The position numbers and the translations under genes were made by a program. A stretch of DNA of 64,000 nucleotides from Paramacrobiotus metropolitanus (Eukaryota; Tardigrada; Eutardigrada; Parachela; Macrobiotidae), in assembly GCF_019649055.1 (NCBI RefSeq), contig NW_026570257.1, positions 248,001-312,000 on the forward strand, written 5' to 3'. Each line of letters opens with the position of its first letter. The stretch's first letter is position 1. Shown piece after piece: positions 40,809-63,359 of this stretch. Under the pieces are notes generated by a model. It saw nothing but the letters and a program-made list of their open reading frames with translations. It did no database searches and was not told where the DNA came from.

Positions 40809-41300
40809 AAAGGTCACAGGTCCTGTCCACCGTTTTCTGCACTTTGGCCCATTCCGCTCTGTTGAGCAATTCCGCGCATCCGTAGTGCGACTTTTCATCA
40901 CAATCCGCTTGAGAATCTGGTGCGTATCAAGTACGACTTGAAATACTGCTTCAATCTTTGGAATAAGGTGCGTATCAATTGTACGACTTCAAAATGAGAT
41001 CCATAAAGGTCATGGAGGGACGTCATGTAGACAAGCGTAGTTCGCTTCCTCCCTAGTAAAGGTCATCCTTTGTTGAGATGATCCGTTGAGATGTGCGACT
41101 CGTTTTGGGTTAATGGTCCCAAAGGTCATGCGACTTGAATTCCGATACGGTGACTCTGTTGGGCAATTGATGATCCCAAAGGTCATCCCACTCGTCAAAG
41201 CTTCCATTAAAGGTCATGGAGGGACTTAGCCAATTTTCTGCGGCTTTCAAGCACTTCTTCGCTTGCCTCCCTGGTAAAACTTGCAGTTTGACCTTTCCGT
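40809..41300 (+). repeat. AAAGGTCA cluster in the retroelement tail
   Basis: Six exact plus-strand AAAGGTCA copies fall between 40809 and about 41218 (often followed by TGG, TCC or CGG), and one TGACCTTT near 41290. In this non-coding tail they run antisense to the element, unlike most copies in its coding part. Confidence 0.85.
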
Positions 41301-41336
41301 CGCACATCCAACTTCAGTATGCCTCGAGCGGCCAGA

Positions 41337-41812
41337 GTGCCGGCAAGTTTACCGTAGCATCTCTGATGGGGCCGGCTAGTTACCGCATTAAGTTTACCCC
41401 ATGAAATTTCCACATTTAATCTTTTACTCTTGTTCGCCGCCTGTGGCCCATGTCAATACGAGAAATCCGGCTCGATAACCGTAGTTTTTCTCGTTTCACC
41501 TTTAACACTGAATCGCTTAAGAAGAGTGCCGGCAGAGTTTACCGTAACAACTCTAATGAGGCCGGCTGGTTGCCGCATTAAGTTAACCTCATCAATATTC
41601 CACCTGTTGTCTTTCTCTTTTTCGCCGCTTGTGGCCCCGTTTCGTATTCAAGAGATCCGGCTTGATTACCGTAGTTTCTCTTGTCACTTTATAACACTGA
41701 ATCGCGTAAGGAGGAGAGCCGGCTAACTGCCGTAACTGCTCCCTTGGGGCCGGCTTTATAGACCGAATCAATTTCAACCCCAATAGTATTCCACATGATT
41801 TCTTTAGGCAAT
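41337..41812. repeat. ~190-bp tandem repeat, about 2.5 units
   Basis: Units begin near 41337, 41527 and 41717. Each has GCCGGC or GCCGGCT pairs flanking a short stem and the words ACCGTAG, CACTGAATCGC and TTCGCCGC. Units 1 and 2 are alike over their whole length; unit 3 stops after about 95 bases. It lies in the non-coding tail between the last accessory frame and the octamer cluster, perhaps as an RNA structure or a duplicated 3' element. Confidence 0.75.
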
Positions 41813-41969
41813 TCTGTGCTATAAATGCTGCAACCAACAAATACACAAATACAATTAATGTTAACATGTCAAATGTCACGCCCTTTATACAACACCGTTT
41901 TTCATTTTTGTGACGTACCGACAAAATGCCGTAGACGTCCTTTCAATAGTGTGATCCTAACGATCAGCA

Positions 41970-44711
41970 CTATTCCATTTCATTTGAATCGCCCTCACCA
42001 TCTCTTGGCGGGCGCTTCTTAGCACTTTCGGGTTGATTACGGTCAGATGTTCGATCGACTGGTTCAGTTGAGTCAACTTCCATGACCTTTGACGGGTCAA
42101 CTTCTCGCTGGCCACGACCTTTTCCTTGACGGCTCCGCTTGACCGCCTCAAGTCGATGACGCGCGTCATTTTCTTCAAGTCGCAGTCTTCGGTTATCAGG
42201 GTCTTCCGCCAATCGACGCTGCACGTCGGCGAGATTATCCCGCAGCTGTTGGTTTCGTATGCCGCGTCGTCCCATCTGGTTGGGAGCGCGTTCCGGACGT
42301 CGGTCGCTTTTCTTCACTAGGAATTCATCGATGTACGTTTCGATTCCGTCCACCGGTTCGACGTAGTCGCTTCCCAGAGAATCTTTGATCTTATTAATCC
42401 TTTCTTCAACTTGGGATGCATGGCGCTGTATCAAGTTGCCCTTTTCCATCCGTGTCTTACACTTCTTCAGCGCCTTGCGAGCCGTATGCGCTATGCTGAT
42501 GTGTTCCATCGGTTGTCCCAATTTAGCGACATGAGCTCGGAAGAACGGTGGAATGTCGTCCTTCATAGTGTTAGACACCAATTGATTCTGTGTCTTGTAA
42601 TGTGCCAATCTCGCAGCGAAGACCTTTTGCCCCATCCTTTTTGCGGCATAGTCCTTCGGATCTACCTGTAATCCGATCGACGCTCTCGCAGCTAACAACT
42701 TGAAAGCTGGATTCACATATCGTAAAACGAACTGGGCCACGTATTCTTGTCGTTCCGGATAGTCGCGATAATAAAATTGGGTCATCCCAATTGGATCCGT
42801 TGTATCCAGTGGCACATCCAGTAGGCTCAAATCGACCAAACTGTGTAACCCATTCCGTCTAATAGGGAGATAACAGTCCCGTGCCGAATCGCGGTGGATG
42901 AATAATCGACGAAAAATTCCCTTTTCTACTCCCTCTTTAATTTCTTTTGCGTAGCCCGAGTCAAGTAAGAATTGGCTCAACTGTCTCAGAATTGTGGCAA
43001 TTTTGTTGGCTTCGACCGAGTCCGATTCAAGTCCAAAGTATCGACAAATTTCGACCGTTTGCTCATCAGTATCAGTCGTCTTATATTCCATGTCAATGCT
43101 TTCAGGTTGTCGGTTATTAAATCTGGAGTTTAATCGCTGATCACCTTGGCGACGATTATCCGGTTCGCCTTGACCTTCCAGTCCACGTCGCTCTCCTGAC
43201 TCAGGCTGCGACGTTTCATTACTCGTCGGTGTAGCCGGTTGAAGGTCACTATCCAAAATCACGTTTCGTCGATGGGTCACGTTTTCTTGAGACGCTTCCA
43301 CAATCGAACGGGTTCCTTCCATCGCATCGTCCTCTTGTACGACGCTCACAATTGGATCCACGACGTGAACCATTGACTCCACCCGCTGATACTTTGGGGG
43401 TGAATCTTCCCGTTCGGTGCTTGATGACCTTTTACTTGAGCCCGAGTCAAAGGTCGCATAAAATGCAGCTCTCTGTTGCCATCTTTTATCCTGTGGGTCG
43501 GGTGTTCGATTCCGCGTTTGTTCGCGTCTTTTGTCCCATGACCTTTCAGATGTTGACATTCTGACATTGCGATTCCGGAATGCAACTCCCATCGGCACCT
43601 GATGTCCTTGCTTCTCGGGTTCTGTACGGAATGTCTCCGCACGCCGTTTCTCTTCACGTCCTCTTGTGGCTGCCAAGATCTTTGCCGTGTCGATTTTCCT
43701 CTGAACACTCGTTTCTGTTACTTCATTTCCATGGCGCACCCATCCTCTTCCGCCGCGGTAATCTCGGTCGCGAGAGTGTTCGCGTGACCTTTCACTGTGG
43801 TAGTCACGTGTCCTTTCACGAGAGTGTTCACGTGACCTTTCGCTCCGTCTTTCAGAAATCCGTTCATGTTCACGTGAATGTCCGCGTGACCTTTCTCTAT
43901 GCGGAGGCGATCGAGGTCGAATGAAACCTTCGTCCCGTTTAAAATTTCTGAGTGCTTGCAGCACATCGCTTTCGGTTCGGCGAGATTTACGTAGGTCATC
44001 CATACGTCTTTCGACTTCCTTCTTTATGTATGGTGCCGGCGCGAACCCGTCTTGCAGTCGTTTCTTCTCCCGCAACAGCATTTTGAATAACTCGTCTGAC
44101 ATAGCAGCTGGATCTTTCGTTAACGTTTCGATTTGTATGATGAGCGACTGTCGTACAAGTTGCATTTCGTCTTCATTAAGGCTGGCCATGCCCGTGGGTG
44201 CAGCTAAACCCGACGTACTGGGCAATGCTTCCCGTGCGGCCTGTTCACTTGCTCTTTTATTTTCCGCATTAATTTTCGCTCTGATTTCATCCTCCATTTG
44301 CTGAACACGCATCTTCTCTTGATCTTCTTCAAACTTCTTTCGATACGCGTCTGTTTGTGGACATTTCAACGGTTCCAAGGTGTCATCCCAACCAGGTTCG
44401 TTGTTTCGGATCGCTTCCCGATAACGATCCTCAAATAGCATTCGCTCTTCTACTGGGATGCTGCCGTAATTTCTTGCGCTTATGAGATTTCGAAAAACGT
44501 CCAAGTTCCCACGTTTGGCTTCCATGATCCCAACAAGCGTGACGACATGTGGGTCTTCCAGCTTGTGAATACAAGTGTAGCAAGGGAATTTCTTATCAAC
44601 CTTTTTGTTGTTCCGTAAACAGTCCGGACATTTTGGATTATAGCCCGTAAACTGATCGATGTCTGCCGCCATTCCCGAACGTTTAGGAGTGGCTTGACCT
44701 TTTTGTGCCAT
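41970..44711 (-). CDS. Retroelement accessory frame 2 (913 residues)
   Basis: An ATG-started open frame downstream of integrase. Near residues 34-56 there is a zinc-ribbon-like pair (CPDC, 14 residues, CYTC). A charged, coiled-coil-prone region follows (EEDQEKMRVQQMEDEIRAKI). Residues of about 265-330 are rich in Arg-Ser (SERSREHSRERTRDYHSERS), resembling the RS domains of splicing factors. The C-terminal half has alpha-helical, basic blocks (QLRDNLADVQRRLAEDPDNR). No signal peptide or membrane segment is visible, so it is not an obvious envelope. I do not recognise the family. Several octamers lie inside it, some of them building the RS-rich stretch. Nucleic-acid binding is inferred from composition. 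Confidence 0.6.
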   Translation of the reverse strand: MAQKGQATPKRSGMAADIDQFTGYNPKCPDCLRNNKKVDKKFPCYTCIHKLEDPHVVTLVGIMEAKRGNLDVFRNLISARNYGSIPVEERMLFEDRYREAIRNNEPGWDDTLEPLKCPQTDAYRKKFEEDQEKMRVQQMEDEIRAKINAENKRASEQAAREALPSTSGLAAPTGMASLNEDEMQLVRQSLIIQIETLTKDPAAMSDELFKMLLREKKRLQDGFAPAPYIKKEVERRMDDLRKSRRTESDVLQALRNFKRDEGFIRPRSPPHRERSRGHSREHERISERRSERSREHSRERTRDYHSERSREHSRDRDYRGGRGWVRHGNEVTETSVQRKIDTAKILAATRGREEKRRAETFRTEPEKQGHQVPMGVAFRNRNVRMSTSERSWDKRREQTRNRTPDPQDKRWQQRAAFYATFDSGSSKRSSSTEREDSPPKYQRVESMVHVVDPIVSVVQEDDAMEGTRSIVEASQENVTHRRNVILDSDLQPATPTSNETSQPESGERRGLEGQGEPDNRRQGDQRLNSRFNNRQPESIDMEYKTTDTDEQTVEICRYFGLESDSVEANKIATILRQLSQFLLDSGYAKEIKEGVEKGIFRRLFIHRDSARDCYLPIRRNGLHSLVDLSLLDVPLDTTDPIGMTQFYYRDYPERQEYVAQFVLRYVNPAFKLLAARASIGLQVDPKDYAAKRMGQKVFAARLAHYKTQNQLVSNTMKDDIPPFFRAHVAKLGQPMEHISIAHTARKALKKCKTRMEKGNLIQRHASQVEERINKIKDSLGSDYVEPVDGIETYIDEFLVKKSDRRPERAPNQMGRRGIRNQQLRDNLADVQRRLAEDPDNRRLRLEENDARHRLEAVKRSRQGKGRGQREVDPSKVMEVDSTEPVDRTSDRNQPESAKKRPPRDGEGDSNEME

Positions 44712-45049
44712 CTTTCTTCTTCAATCTGCAATTATAAAGCAATCCGTCATAGTAACCTTTTCCACGTCAATCTTTTCCATTCCTATCCATGTTAAGGCTT
44801 TCTATCATTTTTACGCCTATTCCGTTACTGAGCTGAGACTTTCCTAGCTCCTGCTGGCTTTCTATCACTGTAACGTGGTGACCTTTCTCACGTTATCAGC
44901 ACTCTCCGACTACTGTGACCTTTTCTATTAGTCCTATTGCTGCTTTCAGGTGACCTTTCCTAACACTTTTCTCTTTCGTTTTGAACTATTTTATGCTTTT
45001 TCTGTAATATGCAGGGTTCATTACTCGCTGCATATTACACTGTCGACAT
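44712..45049 (-). other. Spacer between the two accessory frames
   Basis: It has no frame of note. Three TGACCTTT copies occur within about 80 bases (around 44880, 44921 and 44950). It could hold splice or promoter signals for the downstream frame. Confidence 0.4.
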
Positions 45050-48000
45050 TCATTCTGCTTCTTTCTCTGGTGGTGGTAACGGTGGAAAATCTATCCGGCC
45101 ATCGCTGTTGATGTGAACTGCTTCGTCCGCAATCAAAGCTTCCACCGCATTCTTGATCCATTCCTTATCTTTCTCGATGTTCAATTCGCCCAATTCATAA
45201 TGAACGGCCATGAAATTTGAAAGGTCACCCCATGACGCTCCGTTGGTACCTCCGATGGCGTCCAAAGCCACGTCTGTGATGGCTATCTTCCATGCCTCTA
45301 ATGCCATTGGAAGTCTAGGAGTACGCTCTCGGCCCTGTTTCGGTAGGTAATAAATGACCTTGTTGTCCTTGTTGTATTTACATCCTAATTTCCCTTCCTT
45401 GTATGCTCGTTTCAGAACTCTTTCGGTCATATTGAGTGACGACCTCCCCTTCGAGTTTTCAGCCACTTGTCTCTTCAGTTCGGGGCCAAGTAGTTCGCCT
45501 TCTCTGACCATCTGGAGCGTATTTTGGACTTCCTTCCATGTACGGTTGTTTACGTCCAATGCCGGCCCTAACGTGTAATCTGTAGCCTCCTTCACTGGTG
45601 TATCGCTACTTTTCTGGGAGGATGTCGAATCCGTTGGGTCAGCTGTCGCTGTTTCATCGATCCTCAGCTTTGCCAATGATCCTGATGATGACCCCGCTGA
45701 TTTTGGTTCGGCTGTCTTCTTCTCCTCTTGCGGCAAAGTCTCTTGACCTTTTAGATCGCCAACCGACTTCGATCGTTCCTTCTCAAAGACCTCCTTTAAT
45801 GGTATGAACAGTGATTTGTGAAACACCTGTCGCGCCGAATCCGCTTCAGCTTCTGCCGCTGCCTTATCCATCGGGAGCATGACCTTTTCTTTCTCCCGTT
45901 TGTCTGAAGTCTCATGACCTTTCGGTTGAACTTCTGCGGTAGTTCCAGATGTCTTTTGACCTTTCGACTGTTCATCTTTTTCTGTCGCAGGTCCAGAAGG
46001 AGCCGTTATTGTAGTATCGTCATCACTTCCCGATTCCGAGTCCATTGGTCCTTTTTTCCTCGGCACTTTCGGGGCTTGTGATTTCAACCTCGCCGCTGCA
46101 TCTTCTTCGGCCGTTTTCTGTGCAATCTGATCCAATATCGGAGTTGACGGGTCTCCGCTCGATGGGACTATGACCTTTTCCGTATCCTGACTGTCAGACA
46201 TGTGACAGTGGATTTGTCTTTCCGGTGGTATCAAACCAACTCTCGTGTATCGGATTGGATGTCCTTTATTTGCGTTTGTTGTGGCAAGGACATTCTGTTT
46301 AATCAACTTTGGCAGTACGCGCTCGGTTGCCGTGTCGATCTCCTTTATCATCCCGTTCCCATCATTCCAAACTGCGTTAATATATTGGCTAATCCGATGG
46401 CTTGTTGATCCTAACGGGCTTGTCATTCCTGCGATTGCCCTTTCTACTCGCATTGGGACCGCTTCATTCGGAGTAGTCAGCGCTTTGTCCGAACTGGCAG
46501 GTCTGAACAGCTTGGCTTTATACGAAAAGTTTGGGTGCTTTTGGATAAGTTTCCCTGCACTCCGTGCGAATTCCAATACAACGTCGAACTTTCGTTTAGT
46601 GAAGCTGCGACTCTGTTTCTTCAGATAAGTCTTCAGGCCCGCTTTAAATTTCGCTGTCACCGATGCTGTTCTTATTCGTGTGAAATTCTTCTCGGCTCCG
46701 TTATACGCGTTGATGATTTCATCGACCGTGGTCAAATTGTCGTCGTCTGAACCATCGAACTCTTCATCTGAGGTGAAATCCAGTTCACTCTCTCCATCTG
46801 GTTCAGTGTAATTGATCATTGCCATTGCGTCGACTTTTATGGCTGTCTTGACCTTTCCTTTTGTCTTAACGGGTTCGCTCTTTGCTTTTTGCCTTTTATC
46901 CAGTGCTTCCGCTAAGCTCCTTGGTTCAGTGGTTCTTGATCGTGTCGTTTTCGAATCCGCATGTGACCTTGCACTGACCGTCGAAGTGCTTGGAAGGCTC
47001 ACTTCCGATGCCTCCGATTCACGCGACGTCTCCCGTTTCGCTTTTTCGCGGATCTGTTTGTCCTTGCGCTCTTTTGGCGTGGATGCAGAGATGACGATGG
47101 GGACAACTTGTTTCACTGCTATGACCTTTCCTTTGGGTTTTGATGGCTCTGCTGTAGCCGATTGGATAACTTTCTTTGACTTCGTAGGTGTCGATGACCT
47201 TTCTTCAACTTCACCAACTGACTCGTCCAATATCTCAACATCATGAGACGCTGGTTCGTCTCTTTTCTTTGATCCTTCCCTTTTCTTCTTCCCGGTGCTT
47301 GTGCTATCGCTTTCATCACCGCTCTTTTTCTTCTTATCTTCTTCCTCCTGTCGTTTCTTCTTCTCTTCTTCCTCCCGTCGTTTCTTGAGAAAATCGCCTT
47401 TCTTAACCTTGTCACGGTTCATGGCCTCTTCCAATCTGGGCGCTTTCCTCGGTTTGACTTTTGAGGGCTTCACTTTTGAGGGCTTTTTATGCTTGTCGGT
47501 CGTTTCTTCGTCTGAGCCTTCTTCCTCAGGTGGGTTATCGTCTTCCGACTCTGGTTCGTCGTCACCAGGTGGATTACAATGGGCACAGTTTGGTTCATCA
47601 CACTGAAGGTGCTCATGACTTCCTTGGGCAATCTCGAGTACTCTTTGTAGCGAGCGTCTGGCCCCTCCTGTTTCAGTTACATTTGCCGACGTGCCCTGCG
47701 CCTCTTCCGTCTCTCCGGCTCCGCCTTCTTGTGCCGGGGGATGAATTTCCAAGTGTCTTGTCTCTTTCGGAGATCCCTGTGAGGCGACCTCCCATAAAGG
47801 GTTCTTCTTAGCGTCGTAAAATACCGTTTTGTACGTTCCGTCTTCCATTCGTCTTGTGAGTCGGAAATGTGCTCCATCGATCTCCGCTCGATGCCGCATC
47901 ATGCCAATCAGTGTGCTCGCTTGAACCACGGCATCTGTTCGGTCACTTTCAGGTATCAAATCCCATAACTGCTCAATGGCTGCCTGATTCGCGTTTCGGG

Positions 48001-50068: not shown

Positions 50069-50192
50069 CTGTGCTTACCTTCTATAAAGATGAAACAATA
50101 AAGGTTAACTTTTTGCACAGTGATGACCTTTCTTTTTGCCTTCCCAACTCCTATTTTTAATCTAGTGTGACCCCTTATTTATGTCTATGTGG

Positions 50193-52085: not shown

Positions 52086-55000
52086 TTGTTTGTTTCGCAG
52101 CTGTAGATTGAGTCATCTTCTTCTTCTTCGTCACCTTGCAGGTTAACGATGCGCACTGTTGCTGTACTGAGTTCGTTCCAATCTCTGATGACCTTACAGC
52201 GTGGTAACGGCTTATACCTCTTTCTCGTCTGTTTTGGGAATCTCAGCAACTTAATGGGACATTCGTTCAACGCCTGTGTAACTTTGTCCGTTTCCCAAAG
52301 GTCATCTCTCTTCTCCGCTGCTTCATCGAGTCCAGTGACCTTTCCATTTTGGACTTCGGCATCTATTTCAAGTCCGGTGACCTTTAAGTCACTAACGGTG
52401 GGCAACCAACTTTTTACACGATTCACATTAGCTTCTATTTCAGCCGACTCATTCGCCGTAGCTGAAGTGACCTTTAATCGTTTTTCTCTTTGTTCCACCA
52501 TCTGCAGGAACAGCTGTCCAATTTCAATTGCGGGTTCCTTCGTGTCAAATTCCTTCTTATAATCTTCAAAATTTGGGATCTCATCAAATTCCTCTTCTTG
52601 ACACGTCGGGCCTTCAATTGGCGCTCTTGATAACGCGTCCGCGTTGTCACAATATTTTCCCGGTTTGTATTCGATTTTAAACTGGTGGCCTTGTAGTGCC
52701 ATTGCCCATCTTGTTAAGCGTGGGTTCATTCCAACTTTATTCGTTTCTGACCTTAGCAGGTTAGTAAGCGCCTGATGATCCGTCCTTACGGTGAATTCTG
52801 CGTAATCAATGTACGGCTTGAATTTCCTGACAGCGAACACTACTGCCAGACATTCCCATTCTGTTACACCGTAATTCTTCTCCGCTCCATGTAGGACGCG
52901 ACTCGCATACGCGATTGGATGTCCATCTTGTGACAACACAGCTCCAATTCCTTCTTTACTTGCGTCGCATTCGATTACGGTCGGTTTTGCAGGGTCAAAC
53001 TTTGCCAATACCGGACCTTCACATAACAGTTGTTTTAGACTGTTGAACTCTTCTTCATGTACTGCTGTCCAGTCTTTTTTGACATGTTTATCTTGTCTCA
53101 ACAGTTCATACAAATGGCTCGTCTTCTGGGCATATCCCATTATGAATTTGCGATAGTAGTTTGCCAATCCAAGGAATGACCTTAATTGCCTTTCAGTTTG
53201 AGGCCGTTTGAATTCCGAGACCGCGGTGACCTTTTCTGGGTCCATTCTGATTCCATCTTCGCTGAGTATGTGACCCAGGAATCCCATTTGTCTCATCCCA
53301 AATTCACACTTAGTTGGTTTGATGGTGAATCCCGCTTCAACCAGACTCATTAAGACATTCCTCAAATTCTGCATGAAAATTTCCCAAGTTTTTCCGGCGA
53401 AGATTACGTCATCGATGTACCCGAAAACGCAACCCTTTCTTTTCGCTTTCAAAAGTACTTTATCCATACACAATTGAAATGTTGCTGGTCCGTTGCATAC
53501 GCCAAATGGCATCCTTTTAAACCGGTACATTCCATCTTGCGTAACAAAGGTCGTCTTATTGATTGACGCTGGATCCATTGGGATCTGCCAGAATCCACTT
53601 TGTAAATCCATTTTTCCGTAATATTTGTTGCCTGCACACGCGTCAAGCAGTTCATCTGGGTTTGGTAGCGGGTAGTTATTCTTTCTTGTCCGCTTGTTGA
53701 GCATGATGTAATTGACGCAAAATCGCGTTCCCATTGTTCCGTCGCCATTTTTCTTTATTGCCAGTACGACTGGGAAACTCCATTCGGCATCTGACGGTTC
53801 AATTACATCTTGTGCTAACATTTCTTCGATATGCTTCGTTATAAACTCACGGCCTGTCCAACTCGTTCTGGCCGGGTTGCATTTGACTGGTTTCGCGTCT
53901 CCCGTATCGATTACATGGGTGACCCCTTTGACATCTCCATATGGTTTCTTTGATGTGGGTAAGACCTTCCAGAATTCCCAGAATGCGTTATACACGTCGT
54001 TCATCTGCTCTTGGGTAAGGTCAGGTCCCAATTTCAAGTTTTCAATTATCTTTTTCAATTCAGCTTTCGTTGTGTCGTCCACCTCCGGGTCCTCGAGTAC
54101 GTTCTTTACTGTCCCGGCGTTGACCTTTACATTTTCCATATGCTCGTACGGTTCGACGTATCCGAGAAGCTGATTTTTCTTCACGATCCGATATTTGCTA
54201 CTGTGATTCGCAATAACGATCTCGAAGTACTTTCCTCTGTGGTCCGTCACTCCTGCCAACGGTTGCACCTCAGTTTCCACTTGTGGGACCGGTGTAAACA
54301 TCAACTTGTTTTGAGCCGGTGCATATTTTCCCATCTTGACCTTTACACGTGTGCAGTTTGACGGTTTCAACTTGATTCGTTGGTCACTGTAGACTTTAAT
54401 CACATCTTTCGACATTCTAGCTTTCTCCACTTTCAACCTTCTGACTTTAATATCCTTTTCTTTTTCCTCATCCACTTCGTCATCCTCATCCAAGTCCATT
54501 AAATCCTCTTGCTCCGAAAGGTCACTTACACCTGAATCTTCCGAAGTTGTTGAGTTATCACTTGAACTCGTCCACTCTGAATCTGAGTTACTGCTCTCAT
54601 ATTCTTGTACAGTAGCTTGACCTTTGTTAGCTTTTTCAATTGGGCGCTCATCAACTCCTTCGTCTTCTGATGAAAGGTCACTTTCGTTTTCCCGCGAATC
54701 GCTAAGTTTTTTCGCTTTCGAATTTTTGAGCAGAGGTTTGTCCCTTTCTTTTGCCTTTCGTCCGTTTCGTGCGGCGACTCTTGGGTGACTCCTTGCTACC
54801 CGAATTCTCGTTGGTGACCTTTCTGATTGATCGGAGTTTGACCTTTCTTCGTCCGATTTTGACTTTTCCAGTTCATTTATTTCTTCAAGGCTCGTTAATG
54901 GCTTTTCGGTCAACTCGACCGGCGGACATTCCTCACCGTTATCGAGTGACCTTTCCCCGTTTTTTGCCTCAGTTACTGGGTTTTGTTGTTCGTTCGATAT

Positions 55001-56656
55001 CCTTTCAACTTCCTCTTTAAACCTTTTCCACATTTCACCTCTGTCCGTTAACATCTGCGCAATATCGAAAGCCGACTTTGAACTTTCTTCTGTTTCATTC
55101 GATTGTCCTTCGGCTATCTCTTGAACTGGTTCCTCTTTCTCTGCTTCTTTGACAGTCCCTTTATTGGCTTCATCCTGTTGAACTGTTTCGTAACCTTTAG
55201 GTCGTTTAGGACCAACGAAAATGCAGTTTGCCATCAGTTCTTCGGTGACCCATTCATCATTCGGAATCGTTTCATACATGCACCACGTATCACCACCTCG
55301 TTCTGGGTAGTCCACTCCATCTGGATCTGGTGCAAAGGTCACCTTTTTCTTTTGCATTAATCCCGGTAACCTTCTTTTCCGGGTTACCTGTAGTTCTCGC
55401 ATTTCTTTTACGTCAAATTTGGGGATTTCTTCCTCGAATTTCTTCCAGTATTTCTCGAATGCTTTTCGTTTCCTCTTTAACGCGTTGTAGTACACTTCAA
55501 GTGATTCGTAGACAGGTGTACCAAGTCCTGCCGGGAAGATGATCGTTCTCCCTTCGCCTTTATACATGTGGTTCACACGGAAGTCCCAGAAAAGGTCAAC
55601 TCTCGCTTCTTCCCACATTTCTCCTTCTTCGGTCATCTCTTCTATCTCTCGTTCAAATCTCCTTTCTGTTGATACCGGATCGAGAGGATCTTGGATTCCT
55701 TTCACCACACGTTGCAACCAATGGTTTAGCCATCTGCCTCTTCCGATTATAAAACTTCCCACGCATAACAACCACGTTCGATATCTATTCCAATGATACC
55801 GTTCGATGTGTGGTTTCCACATTTCGTTTGTCCGCATGATGCTTTTCACTTCCTTTTGGGCATGACCTTTAAGGTCTGCTAATGCGGCATTACATCTTGG
55901 CCATTCTGAAAGGTCATCTTGGGAGGCATTTTCACAACATTCCGCGCATTCCCATTGTGGTTGCACTCTGCACGGATCCTCAAAGTAACCGTGGTGACAA
56001 CTCCCGGCTCGTTCTTCTGGAGTTAATGTCCTTTGACTCGCTTGAGGTTTAAGCTGTTCGTGTACTGTGGTATCTTCCTCACATTCGATTGGAGTCACGC
56101 TTTTATCCTCAGAGGATATTACGATGACCTCTGGTTCTTTGTTTTTCCGGTGACCTTTCAACTGTTCGAGTGCCCTGTCGCGGATTTCACTTGTAAACAT
56201 CTGTTCCTCTTCAGTTATTCGCTTCAAAACTCGTAACCTTTCACTCTTTTTATCCTTCCCCACTTTAGCCGTCTTTATTTCCAGTGCCTCTGGTACTGGG
56301 ATAGCTTTTTCAACACCTTTTTCTGTGTCTCCTTGCTTACAGTCATCTGCGATCATACTTCTCCCGTCCGGGAGAAATATGATCGCCTCATCCGTGTCTG
56401 GCGCGAGTGGTTCCTTTTTCCTTTCGTTGACTTTTTTGACATTTACGCTTTCGCTAATCTTCTCCGGTGCCTCTGGTACCGGGATTATCCGTTGGCTAAT
56501 CTCGTTCTGCTGCACTCTCGTCATTCCCGGTGCCTCTGGTACTGGGATGACCTTTTCTCTTCCCTTTTGTGTCAGCATTGTCCGGTTTAACGTGTTTTCG
56601 ATCTCCTGCTGAATCGTTTGCAACTGCTCAAATGGTGACAATTCTTTTCGCGTCAT
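52082..56656 (-). CDS. Retroelement reverse transcriptase-RNase H frame (1524 residues)
   Basis: The first ~900 residues are charged and unusual for a pol gene. They include repeated VIPVPEAP peptides (residues 1-130), a Cys/His cluster (SCHHGYFEDPC, WECAECCE) and Ser/Glu/Asp-rich stretches. The reverse transcriptase follows with the canonical blocks NYPLPNPDELLDA, MDLQSGFWQIPM, FKRMPFGVCNGPATFQ and the catalytic FGYIDDVIFAG, then FLGHILSEDGIRMDP. RNase H follows (VIECDASKEGIGAVLSQDG, RTDHQALTNLL, DNADALSRAP). These are typical Ty3/gypsy sequences. The frame copies genomic RNA into DNA within the particle. The protease frame lies just upstream in the same phase. Confidence 0.9.
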   Translation of the reverse strand: MTRKELSPFEQLQTIQQEIENTLNRTMLTQKGREKVIPVPEAPGMTRVQQNEISQRIIPVPEAPEKISESVNVKKVNERKKEPLAPDTDEAIIFLPDGRSMIADDCKQGDTEKGVEKAIPVPEALEIKTAKVGKDKKSERLRVLKRITEEEQMFTSEIRDRALEQLKGHRKNKEPEVIVISSEDKSVTPIECEEDTTVHEQLKPQASQRTLTPEERAGSCHHGYFEDPCRVQPQWECAECCENASQDDLSEWPRCNAALADLKGHAQKEVKSIMRTNEMWKPHIERYHWNRYRTWLLCVGSFIIGRGRWLNHWLQRVVKGIQDPLDPVSTERRFEREIEEMTEEGEMWEEARVDLFWDFRVNHMYKGEGRTIIFPAGLGTPVYESLEVYYNALKRKRKAFEKYWKKFEEEIPKFDVKEMRELQVTRKRRLPGLMQKKKVTFAPDPDGVDYPERGGDTWCMYETIPNDEWVTEELMANCIFVGPKRPKGYETVQQDEANKGTVKEAEKEEPVQEIAEGQSNETEESSKSAFDIAQMLTDRGEMWKRFKEEVERISNEQQNPVTEAKNGERSLDNGEECPPVELTEKPLTSLEEINELEKSKSDEERSNSDQSERSPTRIRVARSHPRVAARNGRKAKERDKPLLKNSKAKKLSDSRENESDLSSEDEGVDERPIEKANKGQATVQEYESSNSDSEWTSSSDNSTTSEDSGVSDLSEQEDLMDLDEDDEVDEEKEKDIKVRRLKVEKARMSKDVIKVYSDQRIKLKPSNCTRVKVKMGKYAPAQNKLMFTPVPQVETEVQPLAGVTDHRGKYFEIVIANHSSKYRIVKKNQLLGYVEPYEHMENVKVNAGTVKNVLEDPEVDDTTKAELKKIIENLKLGPDLTQEQMNDVYNAFWEFWKVLPTSKKPYGDVKGVTHVIDTGDAKPVKCNPARTSWTGREFITKHIEEMLAQDVIEPSDAEWSFPVVLAIKKNGDGTMGTRFCVNYIMLNKRTRKNNYPLPNPDELLDACAGNKYYGKMDLQSGFWQIPMDPASINKTTFVTQDGMYRFKRMPFGVCNGPATFQLCMDKVLLKAKRKGCVFGYIDDVIFAGKTWEIFMQNLRNVLMSLVEAGFTIKPTKCEFGMRQMGFLGHILSEDGIRMDPEKVTAVSEFKRPQTERQLRSFLGLANYYRKFIMGYAQKTSHLYELLRQDKHVKKDWTAVHEEEFNSLKQLLCEGPVLAKFDPAKPTVIECDASKEGIGAVLSQDGHPIAYASRVLHGAEKNYGVTEWECLAVVFAVRKFKPYIDYAEFTVRTDHQALTNLLRSETNKVGMNPRLTRWAMALQGHQFKIEYKPGKYCDNADALSRAPIEGPTCQEEEFDEIPNFEDYKKEFDTKEPAIEIGQLFLQMVEQREKRLKVTSATANESAEIEANVNRVKSWLPTVSDLKVTGLEIDAEVQNGKVTGLDEAAEKRDDLWETDKVTQALNECPIKLLRFPKQTRKRYKPLPRCKVIRDWNELSTATVRIVNLQGDEEEEDDSIYSCETNN

Positions 56657-56815
56657 CTTTTTCTTTTCGTTTCCCGGTGCCTCTGGTACTGGGATTAGCG
56701 TTTTATTAGCAGTTTGAACATTTTCCTGTTTTACAAGTTCGGTGACCTTTCCGACTTGAACTTGGGCGACTGGTTTGGGGTCATCTTCTTTTTTCTTCTT
56801 CCCCTTCGTTATCCA

Positions 56816-59056
56816 TCAGTACGAACTTCTTCTCTCTAAGAAGTCGAATCCCAATAACACCTGTACGTCGTCGCACTTCGGTCGGACGTAGAACGAATGT
56901 TCGCTAGTCTTTTTTCTTAAGGTCACTGGTGCTACGCAGTAGTGCGTCACCAGGAATCCTGACGTTCCACTAATTCCGTTTATTTTCACCAATCTGTCTG
57001 GTGGCAATGGGAGCATGTGGAGTCCATTCTTTTCACAAAACGGTTTGCTGATCAGCGACGTCTCAGCGCCGGTGTCCAGCATTGCGTTGACCTTTATGTC
57101 TCCCACTTTCACTTCGTGTGTATATGCTTCAATTCTCTTCGGTAACTTTCCATTTTGAATCTTCAAGGTGTGAATCTTACATTTCACAGGGATAAGCGAT
57201 ACTGGTCCCGGGTCCATATCGGAAAGCACTTGTCCTTTTGCTGGAGTGCTATGACCTTTCAGTATCTCGCTCAGCTTATCAATCCGATGTGGAACGTTAG
57301 TCCGAACATCGTAATATTTTCGCGGCTTTTCTTTGTTTGTTCGCTTCTCTGTAGCCTTTTTACCATCGGTGACCTTTTCCACATTCTGCACTTGCTCATT
57401 TGCTTTTGTGCTATCCATGTGGCCTTTAGTCACTTCATTTATCGTCTGATGGATCAATTCCTCTTTACGGTTTTCATTTCGTTTATCTCTCAGCTTCTCA
57501 ATGACTTCACTTGTTATTTGGTCAGCTCGCTTCAATTCGTCTTCTTCGCCATCTCTCATCTCCTCTGGTGACCTTTCATATGTAACCATGTCATATCCTT
57601 TTTCGGTCATCCATTGCATCACTTTTGCAGATACTTCATTGTTTGTTTTCGTCGGGTCGATTTGTGAAGACATTCCGTCTGTTCGGGCTGGTGACTTGTC
57701 ATTGGCATCCTTTTGCAGTGCCTCCGATAAGTCCCGTGACCTTTCAACTGCGCCACTCTGTTGCATCTGCGCCATCTCGTTTGACCATCCTTTTTGTTCA
57801 TTCTGCGCTAAGTCCTGTGACCTTTCGTTGCGCTTCATGACAAATCCGCCGTTTGTCAGCTTTTGTATGGGGACTTTTTCTCCATAATTCGGCGGTTTAT
57901 CCTGTGGCGGAGCATTACGTGAATAATTCCAGTCAGCGCATGTCTTCTTATATTCCTCTGCGTTGAGTGCTGGGACTGGGTTCGGTGACCCTTGGGTTGG
58001 TTTCCCGGTAACCAACTCTTCCAGTCGCTTTCTTTCACATTGCGTTCGCAACTGTTGCATGTCCCAGTAGTCCTCTTGTGACATTCTTGCTTTCTGCTTT
58101 GCTTTCGGTGTCACAGGTATCCACATCCCGTGATTGCCATTCGGTCTGTAGGCCACTTTTTGCCAGATTTCCTTCCGTTGCAGCGTTATTGCATCTACAA
58201 GTGAGTCATCGGAGTTCTGTTGTGCCAATTCGCCATTCTTTTGCTGCGCTGTTCGCAGTGTCAAGTCTGTTTCTTGACCTTTTAACACGACGCTGTCGCC
58301 GTGACCTTTCGCATTCGCACTCGCTCCTTGACCTTTAACTTGGACTTTTCCAACAGAAGGTGACCTTTCATCTTTACTAATAACGGTGATATTCTGCTTA
58401 ATCCATTCTTGCCTTATTCGCTTCTCTTCTTCGTCTTCTGAACAATTCCAAAACTTTGGCTTTGGCTCCCCGTAACAATCGCAACTTGGCTCATTCGCCT
58501 TATCGTTTTCTGCCAAAAATTTTCGGAATTTCGCATGCTGCTCGTTTTCTTCTTGCGCAGTATCGTTCTGCGGTTTCTTCTGATTCAGCAGCGCCTGTTT
58601 AATCTTTGCGTTCCGTTGTGCGCGTCGTTGCGCTAACACTTCTTCGCTGCAGTACGGTGACCTTTCGTTTTGCTGCACTTTTTGCAGTGTCGCGCTACCG
58701 TCACGACAATTTCCACTCGCAGTACCATTCTGCGGTGACCTTTGGTCCCGTTGCGCGTTTCCACTCGCAGTACCATTCTGCGGTGACCTTTTACTTTGTA
58801 ACGGTATCCCTATAACCGTTCCATTTCCTTTTTGCGATGACGGCATCCATATAGCCGTTTCTCTTTGCTGTGGCGGCATCCATCTAGCCGTTTCTTGTGG
58901 TTGCGGCATCCATATAGCCGGTCCACTTTGCTTTTTCGCTGACGGCATCCATATAGCCGTCGCAGTGGTCACATTCACTGCAGTACCATTCTGCAGTGGT
59001 GACCTTTCCGTTCCCTTTATCCGGTGGTTTAGGGTCGGGTCGATCAGTAGGCTCAC
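56816..59056 (-). CDS. Retroelement protease frame with peptide repeats (746 residues)
   Basis: The C-terminal ~110 residues form a retropepsin-like domain with the catalytic DTGAETSLIS motif and a later LLGFDFL block. The N-terminal part has short peptide repeats: IWMP/RWMP units at about 58.84-58.97 kb and SPQNGTASGN units at about 58.69-58.80 kb. The middle is hydrophilic with KGH/KGQ, ERS and KVT tripeptides that arise from the AAAGGTCA octamer. Retropepsins mature Gag and Pol in the particle. Its position between the Gag-like frame and the reverse transcriptase is normal for the family. Confidence 0.8.
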   Translation of the reverse strand: MSLLIDPTLNHRIKGTERSPLQNGTAVNVTTATAIWMPSAKKQSGPAIWMPQPQETARWMPPQQRETAIWMPSSQKGNGTVIGIPLQSKRSPQNGTASGNAQRDQRSPQNGTASGNCRDGSATLQKVQQNERSPYCSEEVLAQRRAQRNAKIKQALLNQKKPQNDTAQEENEQHAKFRKFLAENDKANEPSCDCYGEPKPKFWNCSEDEEEKRIRQEWIKQNITVISKDERSPSVGKVQVKGQGASANAKGHGDSVVLKGQETDLTLRTAQQKNGELAQQNSDDSLVDAITLQRKEIWQKVAYRPNGNHGMWIPVTPKAKQKARMSQEDYWDMQQLRTQCERKRLEELVTGKPTQGSPNPVPALNAEEYKKTCADWNYSRNAPPQDKPPNYGEKVPIQKLTNGGFVMKRNERSQDLAQNEQKGWSNEMAQMQQSGAVERSRDLSEALQKDANDKSPARTDGMSSQIDPTKTNNEVSAKVMQWMTEKGYDMVTYERSPEEMRDGEEDELKRADQITSEVIEKLRDKRNENRKEELIHQTINEVTKGHMDSTKANEQVQNVEKVTDGKKATEKRTNKEKPRKYYDVRTNVPHRIDKLSEILKGHSTPAKGQVLSDMDPGPVSLIPVKCKIHTLKIQNGKLPKRIEAYTHEVKVGDIKVNAMLDTGAETSLISKPFCEKNGLHMLPLPPDRLVKINGISGTSGFLVTHYCVAPVTLRKKTSEHSFYVRPKCDDVQVLLGFDFLERRSSY

Positions 59057-59062
59057 CGGTGC

Positions 59063-60493
59063 CTACTGATCTTGCCCGTTTCCCTGAACCGGCGCCCCTC
59101 CTTGTTGCGCGCCCTGCACATTCCCTTGCGCTTGCTCGTTCACCGGGCCACCTCCGTTTTGCTGGCCACCACCCTGTTGGTAGTTTCCTTGGCCGCCGCC
59201 ATTGTTCTGGCCTCCTCTGAAGTTTCCGCGGCCGAAGCCTCTGTTTCTTCCTCTGAAGCCGCCGCGGCCGAAGCCACCACGGCCGTAGCCACCGTTCTGG
59301 CCACCGCCATTTCCATTTCCATAGTTCCCGTTTCCATTCCCTTGTTGGTTTTGGAAGTTTGCTTTGTGCTGATACCATTGGGTGATGAGGTCATATCCGT
59401 TATTTACCGCTAGACGCCAACCACCAAGCCCGCGCAGTCGTTGCCACTCGTTGAAGGCAAACAGATTCGGGTTCTGTTCTGGTGATGTGTTAGCGAATTT
59501 GCACCCCTGTGTCTGATGATTGCCGTCCATACAGTACTGGCACATCTGAACGTTGTTCGCCACCCATCCGTCAATCATCTGGAACTTGAATTCGGTTCGT
59601 GACCCTTGATTTTGCTGACTATTGTTCTGGTTTCCTCTGTTTGGCTGAAAGTTGCCTTGACCTTGACCTTGATTCTGAAAGTTTCCTTGGCCTCCATTCC
59701 AGTTTCCATTTCCATATCCATTTCCACCGAAATTTCCATTACGCCCACCTTGTTGTGGTAACCCGACATTCATAGGGGCCACATTCTGTGGTGCCGGTGC
59801 AGCCGCATTTGGAGGTACTGGCCTCGCTTGAGCGGCCACCTGTACCGCCGCCGCTTGTATGGCTGCCACCATTGCGTCAGCAAGGGTGACCTCTTTGGTT
59901 ATTTCTTGAGCCAGGTTTGCTCTGCGGTAATCCGGTGGCTGCTGAACTGGTACCGCTGCCATTCTCTGTTGTGGCATATCTTCGACTTGACCGGTACGGA
60001 TTGTCACGTAATCTTGGTTACGTTGACCTTTTGGCGCTTTATATTTTTCTTCTCCAGCTGACCAGTGTCGGAAAAAATCTTTGATTTCGGTCGGTGTTCT
60101 GCATTGTTGCGTACGCAGTGCCTTATAAAGGTCACTGTCCACTCTGCATCCCTCGATTAGGAAACCGACTGCTTGTTTTTCAGTGATAATCCGCTTCGCC
60201 TTGTATTTCATGATCGCCTGATAAAACTGATCGAGCGATTCTTTTCCAAGGTCGAATTTCCTTGCCATGGCTTCTCGTAGTCCGAGGACTTCTTCATCAC
60301 GGTCTCCATATTCATCTTTGAATTTGGCCATCCATTCCGTAATTTGTATTCTGTTTCCTCCTGGAGTGCGATCTCTCTCTCTCCTTCGAACCAGGTTTTC
60401 GCTGGTCCTTTTACTGCGCTGGCTATCTCGATTAGGATTTGGTCGTCGGTGAGATGATACGTTCGTTGGGTATCTCTGACCAGTTGTGTCCAA
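59063..60493 (-). CDS. Retroelement Gag-like nucleocapsid frame (476 residues)
   Basis: The N-terminal part resembles retrotransposon Gag helices (WMAKFKDEYGDRDEEVLGLR, LDQFYQAIMKYKAKRI). A CX2CX4HX4C zinc knuckle (CQYCMDGNHQTQGC) near 59.53 kb is a typical RNA-binding nucleocapsid motif. Gly/Asn/Gln-rich runs flank it, and the C terminus is RGG-rich (GGFGRGGFRGRNRGFGRG), both suggestive of RNA binding and condensation. It overlaps the coiled-coil frame in another phase over about 285 bases, as gag regions of some retroelements do. Confidence 0.75.
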   Translation of the reverse strand: MDTTGQRYPTNVSSHRRPNPNRDSQRSKRTSENLVRRRERDRTPGGNRIQITEWMAKFKDEYGDRDEEVLGLREAMARKFDLGKESLDQFYQAIMKYKAKRIITEKQAVGFLIEGCRVDSDLYKALRTQQCRTPTEIKDFFRHWSAGEEKYKAPKGQRNQDYVTIRTGQVEDMPQQRMAAVPVQQPPDYRRANLAQEITKEVTLADAMVAAIQAAAVQVAAQARPVPPNAAAPAPQNVAPMNVGLPQQGGRNGNFGGNGYGNGNWNGGQGNFQNQGQGQGNFQPNRGNQNNSQQNQGSRTEFKFQMIDGWVANNVQMCQYCMDGNHQTQGCKFANTSPEQNPNLFAFNEWQRLRGLGGWRLAVNNGYDLITQWYQHKANFQNQQGNGNGNYGNGNGGGQNGGYGRGGFGRGGFRGRNRGFGRGNFRGGQNNGGGQGNYQQGGGQQNGGGPVNEQAQGNVQGAQQGGAPVQGNGQDQ

Positions 60494-61938
60494 CCATTCA
60501 CTGCGTCGCGGCTGCCGTCAAAGGTCACGAGTGTGTTTTTTCGAGCCATCGAGTTGAGCGCTTTTGTCAACTGCGCCGCTGTATCTTCTGCTCTCTGGTC
60601 CTCCTCCTCTTTGCTACTTTCATCATTGTTTTGATTTCGTTTCGCCTTTCCATAACGGGATTTCCTAGGACGCTCCTGCCGGCTGGAGGGTCTGTCCCGT
60701 CGCCCTTCATCCATGAACACGTTTGTTTCAAAGTGCGAGGGAAATTGTGAAGGGTCACCTCGACTCATATGCGGGTTACTTTCCGAAGGTGGCTCTTTGT
60801 CTTCTTTGCCCTTTTCTCCTTCTCGTTCCGCTTTTACGCTTCCTTTACCGGTACCAGTTCGTTTTGGCATCTCAAAGTGGAAGCTTTTGCCCGTGCCCGT
60901 TTCATGTGCCTTACTGTAACTGGGCGGGGGTGACTCCACTGTTGCTGTTCTGACTCCATATTGCAGCAGTTGTTCATCTTTGTGTTTATTCGACATGTTG
61001 AGCGCCTTATTTTCATCTTCAAGGCGACGGACTTTCAACTGGAATTCCTCTTTTTCCGTTTTCAAATTCTGATTCTCCTCGTTGACCTTTAGCATGTGCT
61101 GATGGAGTTGGAAGGTCTTCTCCTGGATGACCTTTTCAGTATCATTCTCCATCCTCTTAATGTGTTCCGCCAACTGGGTCACATCCCTTTCCAACGTCGT
61201 GTATTCCTCAGCTGCCGCTTTCAGCTGGTTTTTTGTACGGGTGACCTCATCTTCCCTCGTCATTGCCGTTTGGGTCATATTGATCAGCTCCGTGTTGAGT
61301 CTGATGATCTCCTGTGTTTTCTGATGTACCGTCTGTTGCCATTCTTTATCTTTCAGTTCGAGCACCGTGACCTTTTCATCCAAAAGGTGTGCCTCATGTT
61401 CCCACCTCGCGCCTTGTTCTGCAATCGTCTTGGCGGCTTCCTTCAACTCTTTGATCTCATCGGTGACCTTTTTGTTGTCCTCCTTCAACACCTTGTTCTC
61501 TTGCATCACCTGTCTTATTTCATTATTCAACCGTACACCTTCGGTGGCTGTAAGATCTCGCAAGTCCTTTGCCACCTTAGCGGCTTCATCAGCCCTTCTC
61601 TGGTGATCGTATGACTCCTTCTGGAGGGTCCCGATATTCTCGTCACGGAGCTTCAGGTCATTCCTGAGCTTGAAGACTTCAGTAGTGTTTGTCAACAACC
61701 GCTGAGTAGCATCGGCGAGTTTGGTTGCGTATTCATCTCTTTTCGTTTCGGCTTCAGTGACCTTTAGTTTCAGTGAGTCGCATTCGTCCTTCAATTCTGC
61801 CAAGTGTCGTGACCTTTCCGCTGATTCTTCCGACATGCTCTCGTTAAGGTCACTGACTGCAAGATGACCTTCCATTTCTCTGTCATCTACCATTTTCAGA
61901 TACTCTTCGGCCAGTTCCCCTTGCTTTTCATATTTCAC
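60208..61938 (-). CDS. Retroelement coiled-coil frame (576 residues)
   Basis: Long heptad-rich coiled coil over most of its length (RLTNTTEVFKLRNDL-like, then LRDLTATEGVRLNNEIRQVM), followed by a proline- and charge-rich link and a C-terminal capsid-like helical region (WTQLVRDTQRTYHLTDDQIL, KGPAKTWFEGE) that matches the start of retrotransposon-Gag-type capsids. It probably contributes to particle assembly together with the overlapping nucleocapsid frame. ORF1 lies just upstream in the same phase. Octamers read as KVT here are frequent (KVTVLEL, KKVTDEIK). Confidence 0.65.
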   Translation of the reverse strand: MKYEKQGELAEEYLKMVDDREMEGHLAVSDLNESMSEESAERSRHLAELKDECDSLKLKVTEAETKRDEYATKLADATQRLLTNTTEVFKLRNDLKLRDENIGTLQKESYDHQRRADEAAKVAKDLRDLTATEGVRLNNEIRQVMQENKVLKEDNKKVTDEIKELKEAAKTIAEQGARWEHEAHLLDEKVTVLELKDKEWQQTVHQKTQEIIRLNTELINMTQTAMTREDEVTRTKNQLKAAAEEYTTLERDVTQLAEHIKRMENDTEKVIQEKTFQLHQHMLKVNEENQNLKTEKEEFQLKVRRLEDENKALNMSNKHKDEQLLQYGVRTATVESPPPSYSKAHETGTGKSFHFEMPKRTGTGKGSVKAEREGEKGKEDKEPPSESNPHMSRGDPSQFPSHFETNVFMDEGRRDRPSSRQERPRKSRYGKAKRNQNNDESSKEEEDQRAEDTAAQLTKALNSMARKNTLVTFDGSRDAVNGWTQLVRDTQRTYHLTDDQILIEIASAVKGPAKTWFEGEREIALQEETEYKLRNGWPNSKMNMETVMKKSSDYEKPWQGNSTLEKNRSISFIRRS

Positions 61939-61959
61939 TTTCCATTCTTCTGCTGTACT

Positions 61960-62871
61960 CTACAGGTATCCCCGTTGTTGTTCCAACTCAAATAGCCGAG
62001 TCTCGAGCGATGTCAGTCTCTCTTGATATTCCTGTTTTCGTCTCGCCGTCTGGTCCTCCTTATTATGGAGTTCATCTTCCAGATCCTTCACGCGCCTCTT
62101 CACAGTTGACGTGGGGCTATTCGGTGACGGCGGTCGTACGTTGATGACCTTTCCCGTTTGTGTCCGTTCGATGAGATGCTCTGGTATGTCCTTAAAAAGT
62201 GTCATCCCTTCAGCGCGGTCAGCTTGTCTCATTGCGGATTGGAATGACATATTCATAGTCGTTTCATCGTCCGTGAAATAGGACTCGTTTGATTCGTCTG
62301 AGACCATTGGAGTTGCCCAAAGGTCATCGCCTGTGGTTTTATCGATCAGTGAAAGGTCATCCAGTCCCAGTTCAACGAGTTCTTCTTCAGTGACCTTTGT
62401 CTTTTCCATTTCCATTTGAGCCAGGTTCACATTTTTATCCTGCTCATTCATTCCACTGGTGGTAGCATCCGACTGTGATGCTCCAACTGGTTCCGCTCCT
62501 CTTGCTGTGGGTTTCTCCTCCCCAGTAACCTTCGTCTGGTTCATCGGGTCACTTCCCGCTGTAGGCGCGGGAGTGTGTTTCTGGTCGTCACTGGAGCTGT
62601 CCTGATTGGCGACCGCCTCGAGCGCCTTCTGATAAGTACTATCAGAGCCTCGTGAATCCTTCTTCTCAAATGCCTTGGGCGCTCGAGTGTTCCGCTCGTG
62701 TCCAACTGGACGCGAGTACGGGTACAAATCTTTTTTGTACGGATTTGGTGCACCTTGCTGTGAGCTTCGGGAGCTTTTGCTTCCCTGACTGCTGTTAGAT
62801 GTCGGTTCCTCTTGGTCTTTATCCATGTTGATCGGATAACTTGGACGCTCCTGCCAATTGTTCTCACACAC
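61960..62871 (-). CDS. Retroelement ORF1, unknown (up to 303 residues)
   Basis: The first ATG is at 62826 (MDKDQEEPTSN). The product is acidic, Ser/Thr-rich and probably disordered, with a predicted coiled coil at its C terminus (KDLEDELHNKEDQTARRKQE). It contains both sense octamers (GKVTGEEK-like, KVTEEEL) and antisense ones (LDDLSLID, GDDLWATP). No catalytic domain is seen. By position it is the first product of the element, and being in phase with the coiled-coil frame it may act as a Gag N terminus. Confidence 0.55.
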   Translation of the reverse strand: MCENNWQERPSYPINMDKDQEEPTSNSSQGSKSSRSSQQGAPNPYKKDLYPYSRPVGHERNTRAPKAFEKKDSRGSDSTYQKALEAVANQDSSSDDQKHTPAPTAGSDPMNQTKVTGEEKPTARGAEPVGASQSDATTSGMNEQDKNVNLAQMEMEKTKVTEEELVELGLDDLSLIDKTTGDDLWATPMVSDESNESYFTDDETTMNMSFQSAMRQADRAEGMTLFKDIPEHLIERTQTGKVINVRPPSPNSPTSTVKRRVKDLEDELHNKEDQTARRKQEYQERLTSLETRLFELEQQRGYL

Positions 62872-63340
62872 ACGTTATTGTATGGTTTATTCAATAATCC
62901 TAAAGGTCGCTCTGTACCTCCGAAATTTTTCTAAGTCCTTATTAAAGGTCACTTTTCGACTGAAAAATTTTGACTAAGTCCCGTTTAAAGGTCACTTTTT
63001 GATAAAAAAGTTCGAGAGTTCTGCCCTAAAAGGTCACTTTCGGACAAAACTTCGAAACAGCTTTTACAGTTTGGGACACGTTAGCGAATGAAATCCTACA
63101 GCTGCTGATATCGCTGTACTACTATTCAGTTCAATTTCACTTCGGTAAAGGTCACCGTTTGTCAATTTCGAATCATAAAGGTCACTTAAATAGGTCAATC
63201 CGGTCAATTCCAAACTTTTTGGTAAAGGTCAACTTCTGGTCCCAAAGGTCACTTTCTGACTCAACTCAACTCAAAAGGTCACTTTCCAGCTCAATTTCGA
63301 GTTAAAGGTCACTTTTCATCTCAATTATCTCATCTCAGAT
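62872..63340 (+). repeat. AAAGGTCA cluster in the retroelement leader
   Basis: Nine exact plus-strand AAAGGTCA copies lie between about 62944 and 63311, most extended to AAAGGTCACTTTT. The variant AAAGGTCGC occurs near 62902. Spacing is irregular, between about 25 and 120 bases. The stretch is non-coding, upstream of ORF1, and the motifs run antisense to the element. Confidence 0.9.
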
Positions 63341-63359
63341 CAAATTTCCCATTACTGCT

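Follow-up and report, generated by a model that had tools for sequence, protein, structure and literature searches.

Clusters of protein-binding sites in the leaders of retroelements are already known. In the Drosophila gypsy insulator, 12 sites for Su(Hw), a host zinc-finger protein, lie within 340 bp of 5' untranslated region (UTR), and the portion of the report drawn on here has the gypsy sites confined to that leader cluster (PMC2374998). Here we describe a 24.4-kb element from the tardigrade Paramacrobiotus metropolitanus, which its sequence marks as a Ty3/gypsy-type long terminal repeat (LTR) retroelement and which is saturated with one exact octamer, AAAGGTCA. The stretch examined is C37:248001-312000, 64,000 nucleotides hereafter called the window, from an assembly of 169.8 Mb in 533 contigs. 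As with the gypsy insulator, a Ty3/gypsy-type element carries a tight cluster of sites in its transcribed leader, with nine in 368 bp here and five in the leader of a diverged copy. The word is a different one, as presumably is the protein family that reads it, and, unlike in gypsy, about 76 more sites occupy coding and other internal sequence and another seven form a 3' cluster.

Elements of the mouse mammary tumour virus type carry a few hormone-receptor sites, which lie in the LTR; they are retroelements that use a nuclear receptor, as is proposed here for the tardigrade element, but the LTRs of the latter hold no octamer. Germline genes of C. elegans carry periodic An/Tn clusters through the gene body that are linked to resistance to silencing; in both cases a DNA-level signal is spread through the gene body, theirs being a periodic base composition and the one described here an exact octamer. 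Chi-type and uptake words are exact short words that saturate a genome, but they are bacterial, and strand-polar or tied to recombination or uptake machinery, neither of which was seen here. The octamer itself is known as the NBRE, to which NR4A receptors bind as monomers in host promoters; in the sections of those reports used here, the host gene carries few sites, some of them non-canonical (PMC9022205, PMC8998927), whereas the tardigrade element carries 92 exact ones. A search of open-access full text found no counterpart of a coding body saturated by one exact receptor site.

By exact count the window holds 100 copies of the word, 92 of them at 40809-63311 (29 as AAAGGTCA and 63 as TGACCTTT on the + strand) and eight across the first 40.7 kb. 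An earlier note on this DNA, counting by eye, had put these numbers at about 90 in ~22.5 kb and about eight, and both estimates hold. Dinucleotide shuffles of 40179-64000 (n=200), a control that the note had proposed, averaged 1.3 and never exceeded 5, far below the 92 observed; no other 8-mer surpasses its expectation as strongly, that of AAAGGTCA under an order-2 model being 2.0. Within the coding sequence, 72 octamers stand against an average of 5.3, and at most 15, in 1000 synonymous-codon shuffles within frames, which preserve proteins and codon use. The equal density across the host genome that would have undone the note's claim was not found: 20 stretches of 10 kb, hand-picked regardless of content (one proved to contain a sister element, L010), hold 22 octamers, or 0.11 per kb, against about 4 per kb in the element. 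This background is itself raised, at 3.4 times the 6.6 octamers that the model expects in those 200 kb, which does not suit a simple picture. Across the whole genome, 42,562 octamers (0.25 per kb) compare with 15,522 of the reversed word. The word is under selection at the nucleotide level.

In the pooled octamer-rich sequence, which comprises the window copy and the loci L030, L047 and L054 described below (194 sites with full flanks), AAAGGTCA occurs 195 times against 4.8 expected, about 40-fold, and its 24 one-mismatch neighbours sum to 117 against 68, or 1.7-fold. The most raised neighbours are TAAGGTCA (13 against 1.6), ATAGGTCA (6 against 0.9) and AAAGGGCA (8 against 1.8), and some of the raised ones may be decayed sites; CAAGGTCA is somewhat raised (10 against 3.1). 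The base after the octamer is C at 91, T at 59, A at 41 and G at 3 of the 194 sites (P = 4e-14 for three or fewer, given a G share of 0.19 after CA). Among background sites G takes this position in 4 of 22, and among the eight octamers of window 1-40178 in two.

The earlier note had placed a retroelement at 40809..63311. Its nature as a retroelement is borne out by near-identical LTRs and by the domains for protease, reverse transcriptase (RT), RNase H and integrase. The span is correct for the octamers but not for the borders of the element, since the LTRs lie at 40179-40535 and 64224-64580, the second beyond the window. The sense strand of the element is the minus strand, and its parts are as follows.

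40809..63311, both strands: 92 octamers AAAGGTCA(H) by exact count, 63 sense (minus) and 29 antisense
40179..40535, minus strand: 3' LTR, 357 bp, no octamer; the 5' LTR at 64224-64580 also has no octamer
40809..41296, no strand assigned: 3' untranslated cluster, 7 octamers, 6 of the 7 antisense to the element
41970..44720, minus strand: long open frame of 916 amino acids (aa), no Pfam match, 7 octamers, all on the coding strand
44879-44958, no strand assigned: 3 octamers, between the 916-aa and 1674-aa frames
45050..50074, minus strand: long open frame of 1674 aa, no Pfam match, 12 octamers
50193..52112, minus strand: integrase frame with H2C2 zinc-binding domain and rve core (PF17921, PF00665), 6 octamers
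52082..56815, minus strand: RT and RNase H frame (PF00078, PF17917, PF17919), 20 octamers
56816..59062, minus strand: frame with terminal retropepsin-like aspartic protease (PF13975, PF13650), 14 octamers
59063..62874, minus strand: gag-position frames 59063-60517, 60208-61959 and 61960-62874, 13 octamers
62944..63311, no strand assigned: 5' leader cluster, 9 octamers in 368 bp, all antisense
63312..64000, continuing to 64223, minus strand: octamer-free leader adjoining the 5' LTR

The leader cluster (nine sites, 62944-63311) and the 3' cluster (seven, 40809-41296) are the densest parts. Among coding parts the protease frame comes first with 6.2 octamers per kb, followed by pol with 4.3 and the two downstream frames with about 2.5. 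Few octamers fall in the conserved RT core, a scarcity that would fit protein constraint, and none in the 265 bp beside the 3' LTR. Many octamers have unrelated flanks; short tandem duplication has occurred in the terminal clusters, where it accounts for part of the antisense excess, and the sites there are not independent. A strict minimum spacing was considered and dropped: none of the 91 gaps in the element is shorter than 20 bp, but gaps of 14 to 19 bp occur at other loci.

Coding sites occupy all five usable phases (sense 12/21/25, antisense 3/11), and the sixth, in which the word brings an in-frame TGA stop, contains no octamer. Over the whole element, 63 sense and 29 antisense sites compare with 1.85 and 0.25 expected under the order-2 model, a bias below that predicted from composition, and the coding-strand excess therefore shows no orientation rule. 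Because both strands and all usable phases serve while near-misses do not, we infer that the word is read in double-stranded DNA. The note had also entertained recognition of RNA or of the particle, a proposal weakened by the use of both strands and by the mostly antisense orientation of the terminal clusters. The word might act in RNA either as a protein-binding motif or through base pairing between the terminal clusters, with UGACCUUU, and the coding region, with AAAGGUCA, and the polarities (15 of 16 terminal sites antisense, 58 of 72 coding sites sense) make such long-range pairing possible. Partners that differ by a wobble or by one mismatch are barely raised, though, antisense orientation is found at the other 14 coding sites, and composition would predict a stronger sense bias than that seen; a role in RNA is thus very unlikely.

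Comparison with related copies, another check that the note had suggested, shows sites kept in place above background together with private ones. L030, picked by its integrase (77% aa identity), has 30 octamers over 6.6 kb, and the corresponding region of the window copy (pol and integrase) has 26. At 67.3% DNA identity in a local alignment, 14 of these 26 sites are shared in place, with 12 private to the window copy and 16 to L030, against 8.2% of aligned 8-mers that are identical (binomial 2e-9, sites assumed independent). A first alignment, at 69.5% identity, had given 17 of 26 by eye; such pairwise counts vary with the alignment, and the lower figure is the one used. L054, the 5' part of what is presumed to be the same copy, holds 20 octamers in 4.5 kb and shares 8 of 23 sites with the window copy at 54% identity over leader and gag (background 3.0%). 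Its leader carries a cluster of five octamers, antisense as in the window copy. L047 holds 53 octamers in 10 kb and is a biased sample, fetched since the genome listing showed a cluster there.

The related lineages differ. L010, sampled blind as background, contains no octamer in 10 kb. Its RT is 91% identical to that of the window copy at the amino-acid level (369 aa) and its integrase 61%, which may reflect recombination between lineages. At 76.5% DNA identity, none of the 11 window sites covered survives in L010 (three fall in gaps and eight differ by 1 to 5 bases), while 7 of these 11 are kept in L030 and in L047. L055 and L056, from a more distant lineage and chosen by protein similarity, likewise contain none in 3.3 kb each. 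Given the absence of octamers from all three samples (10, 3.3 and 3.3 kb), saturation is confined to one clade of elements. The tree sets L010 next to the rich clade, but only weakly (support 45 and 64 of 100), and both a gain in the rich clade and a loss in L010 may be compatible with it.

These comparisons also bear on whether the word could have accumulated without selection, by repeat expansion, codon usage or a repeated peptide. Some sites do lie within short tandem repeats, and the peptide ERS is found at 18 of the 72 coding sites. Against such an origin stand the five usable phases, the unrelated flanks, the codon shuffle, the in-place conservation at distant identity and the empty sister lineages, so that it is scarcely credible. 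Chance, codon usage and peptide repeats were ruled out by the shuffles, the phase counts and the in-place conservation.

The reader of the word might also be encoded by the element itself. A product such as that of the 1674-aa or 916-aa frame, or Gag, could bind the word and package, protect or regulate the element's DNA. These two very long extra frames, which stand downstream of the integrase, have no function assigned by Pfam, and the last 319 residues of the 1674-aa frame (window 45050-46009) are predicted to form two helix-helix-helix-strand-strand runs, winged-helix-like, at very low confidence (mean pLDDT 40.5). However, a relative of the 1674-aa product persists in L010 (its main stretches are 37-44% identical), an element that contains no octamer in 10 kb, and the word equals the site of a receptor present in the host. 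An element-encoded reader accordingly seems improbable.

The DNA signal has probably shaped the proteins of the rich clade, as amino-acid triplets capable of encoding the word are in excess there. In both of two proteins from the rich clade the excess is clear (25 against 8.3 expected in P0001, 46 against 13.8 in P0002), and in both of two from the sister lineage it is absent (5 against 6.0 in P0008, 7 against 6.6 in P0015). In six more distant Ty3-type proteins the observed and expected numbers are 16/12.4, 9/8.1, 4/7.8, 10/9.2, 7/7.8 and 4/6.1.

As to the reader, we consider it slightly likelier than otherwise that the octamers are selected putative binding sites, in double-stranded DNA, for a monomeric nuclear receptor of the host, most likely the tardigrade NR4A. 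The earlier note had already seen a nuclear-receptor site in the word, and the whole octamer proves to equal the published NBRE, the site of a receptor subfamily that the note did not name. The receptors that it named as readers, ROR/Rev-erb, FTZ-F1 and ERR, are disfavoured: the words TCAAGGTCA and TAGGTCA occur 6 and 7 times in the pooled sequence against 195 for AAAGGTCA, the NR4A site, although CAAGGTCA and TAAGGTCA are somewhat raised. ERR, FTZ-F1, ROR and Rev-erb prefer other 5' extensions than NR4A. The host genome has 63 matched exon stretches for zf-C4, the nuclear-receptor zinc finger, and the 16 pieces examined by eye include NR4A, FTZ-F1-like and two ERR-like genes. Among PDB entries, the DNA-binding domain encoded by the NR4A gene (C45:296809-297642) scores highest with chains of NR4A1/NGFI-B and NR4A2 (136.6 to 132.2 bits; top match NR4A1/NGFI-B, E 1.7e-39, 136.6 bits), with RXR next at 111.7. 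The following exon codes for the extension VRTDSLKGRRGRLPTKPK, which we take to be the part of NR4A in contact with the A bases at the 5' side. Although much work exists on NR4A receptors across animals, a literature search found little on this receptor in tardigrades, and by title or abstract nothing on tardigrade NR4A.

Another DNA-binding protein of the host could read the word with the same consequences, be it ERR, FTZ-F1, HNF4, a COUP-type receptor or an unrelated zinc-finger protein. The many zf-C4 stretches of the host leave room for one, and the strictness of the word with its base-9 rule is unlike a typical, tolerant receptor site. The A at position 1 and the free position -1 nevertheless suit NR4A over ERR and FTZ-F1, and the host NR4A finds a specific match in the PDB, which makes another host reader unlikely.

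If NR4A is the reader, its molecules would bind at the two dense clusters, in the leader and in the 3' region, and more sparsely along the whole provirus, and this binding would raise transcription in the cells or stages in which NR4A is active. These clusters could serve as enhancers or boundaries that depend on the receptor, much like the leader insulator of gypsy with its 12 sites, while the sites of the body would keep the 24-kb provirus open against silencing or might instead help complementary DNA (cDNA) into the nucleus. With copies in competition, many small gains could accumulate through single-base changes, even at a cost in amino acids. A broader reading, tentative and rather doubtful, is that of a genome-long address code with a nine-base rule (AAAGGTCA without a following G), by which one host receptor would coat the whole DNA and so mark its state continuously, permitting expression, entry into the nucleus or evasion of silencing, instead of acting at a local enhancer. 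That such a code would involve selection on both strands and through genes, strong enough to reshape proteins, is put forward with the same reserve. The sites might also act on reverse-transcribed cDNA, with shuttling receptors coating the 24-kb cytoplasmic DNA and carrying it into the nucleus. Transcription-factor sites have reportedly been proposed to act in plasmid nuclear import, and the sites lie on both strands along the whole body, beyond the vicinity of a promoter. The spread is uneven, however, with the densest clusters in the leader and the 3' UTR, and an import role appears decidedly unlikely.

Several observations weigh against sites for NR4A. The unbiased octamer-rich evidence beyond the window consists of one DNA copy (L030 and L054) and two annotated proteins. 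NURR1 is reported to bind the non-canonical ACAGGTCA and AGAGGTCA, of which the pooled sequence holds 0 and 8, and the word is thus stricter than NR4A requires. The near absence of G at base 9 finds no explanation in the sources consulted. The promoter would be expected in the LTR, and both LTRs and the 903 bp of leader beside the 5' LTR hold no octamer; a reader indifferent to orientation would have no need of terminal clusters that are almost wholly antisense. Exactness, base-9 rule, empty LTRs and antisense terminal clusters alike are not explained by the mechanism proposed.

The family offers a natural, heavily replicated case of a binding word selected inside coding sequence, where codon choice, and probably even the amino acids, yield to a DNA signal. 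Since one genome harbours both the rich clade and sister lineages that lack the word, the capture of a host regulator by selfish elements can be tested directly and, if the octamers are NR4A sites, a mobile family covered with them would conveniently report on the activity of NR4A in a tardigrade.

Some further features of the element complete its description. The LTRs of 357 bp are 99.4% identical (BLAST of both ends), and the insertion is therefore young. On the sense strand the LTR begins TGTGAG, with the TG start present, and GGTAT flanks both sides as a likely target-site duplication (boundary uncertain by 2 bp). TGGTAGCAGAGCC adjoins the 5' LTR on the sense strand, where a tRNA primer-binding site would be expected. 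The Pfam order on the minus strand (protease, RT, RNase H, integrase) is that of Ty3/gypsy elements, and among the best 120 of 4903 matches of the RT region, the top ones are Ty3/gypsy-type proteins that carry PF00078, PF17917/PF17919, PF17921 and PF00665. Gag was not recognised, the three upstream frames having no Pfam match above the cut-off, and the gag assignment of the frames at 59063-62874 is inferred from position and composition. The integrase search gave at least 117 genome matches, many of them split pieces, and with 69 of 1841 candidates scored the copy number of the family is a lower bound only. The 525 residues of the 1674-aa frame that were searched are 100% identical to LOC129589746 of P. 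metropolitanus, and all nine database matches of this frame, itself included, come from the same species. L016, a GC-rich locus (55.6%), encodes sequence distantly related (27%) to portions of both the 916-aa frame and the 1674-aa frame and has no octamer in 10 kb. In the 3' region of the element, a unit of 190 bp occurs twice and in part a third time (window 41334-41723), without octamers.

Outside the element, window 1-40178 contains numerous diverged repeats in both direct and inverted orientation (such as 13166-13739 with 34022-33452, at 76%), which suggests older mobile elements or a gene family. Octamer richness as a trait of all mobile elements of this genome was rejected: three polB elements (Pfam DNA_pol_B_2, Maverick-like by eye), taken for their protein similarity, contain 0, 3 and 0 octamers, with 3 kb read from each. 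In one polB group four copies have 6 or 7 in 3 kb, but these are a biased sample, found through a search for paired octamers. L001, L003, L006 and L007, which belong to one polB-bearing group (Maverick-like by eye) and are similarly biased, share 4 to 5 octamers within about 200 bp between two polB frames. Finally, about 10.7 kb past the element on the same contig, six AAAGGTCA in a single orientation lie within 218 bp (L009:2259-2476). This cluster does not match, at the DNA level, the part of the element inside the window and, standing just upstream of a host-like open frame, is possibly a receptor-bound regulatory region of the host.

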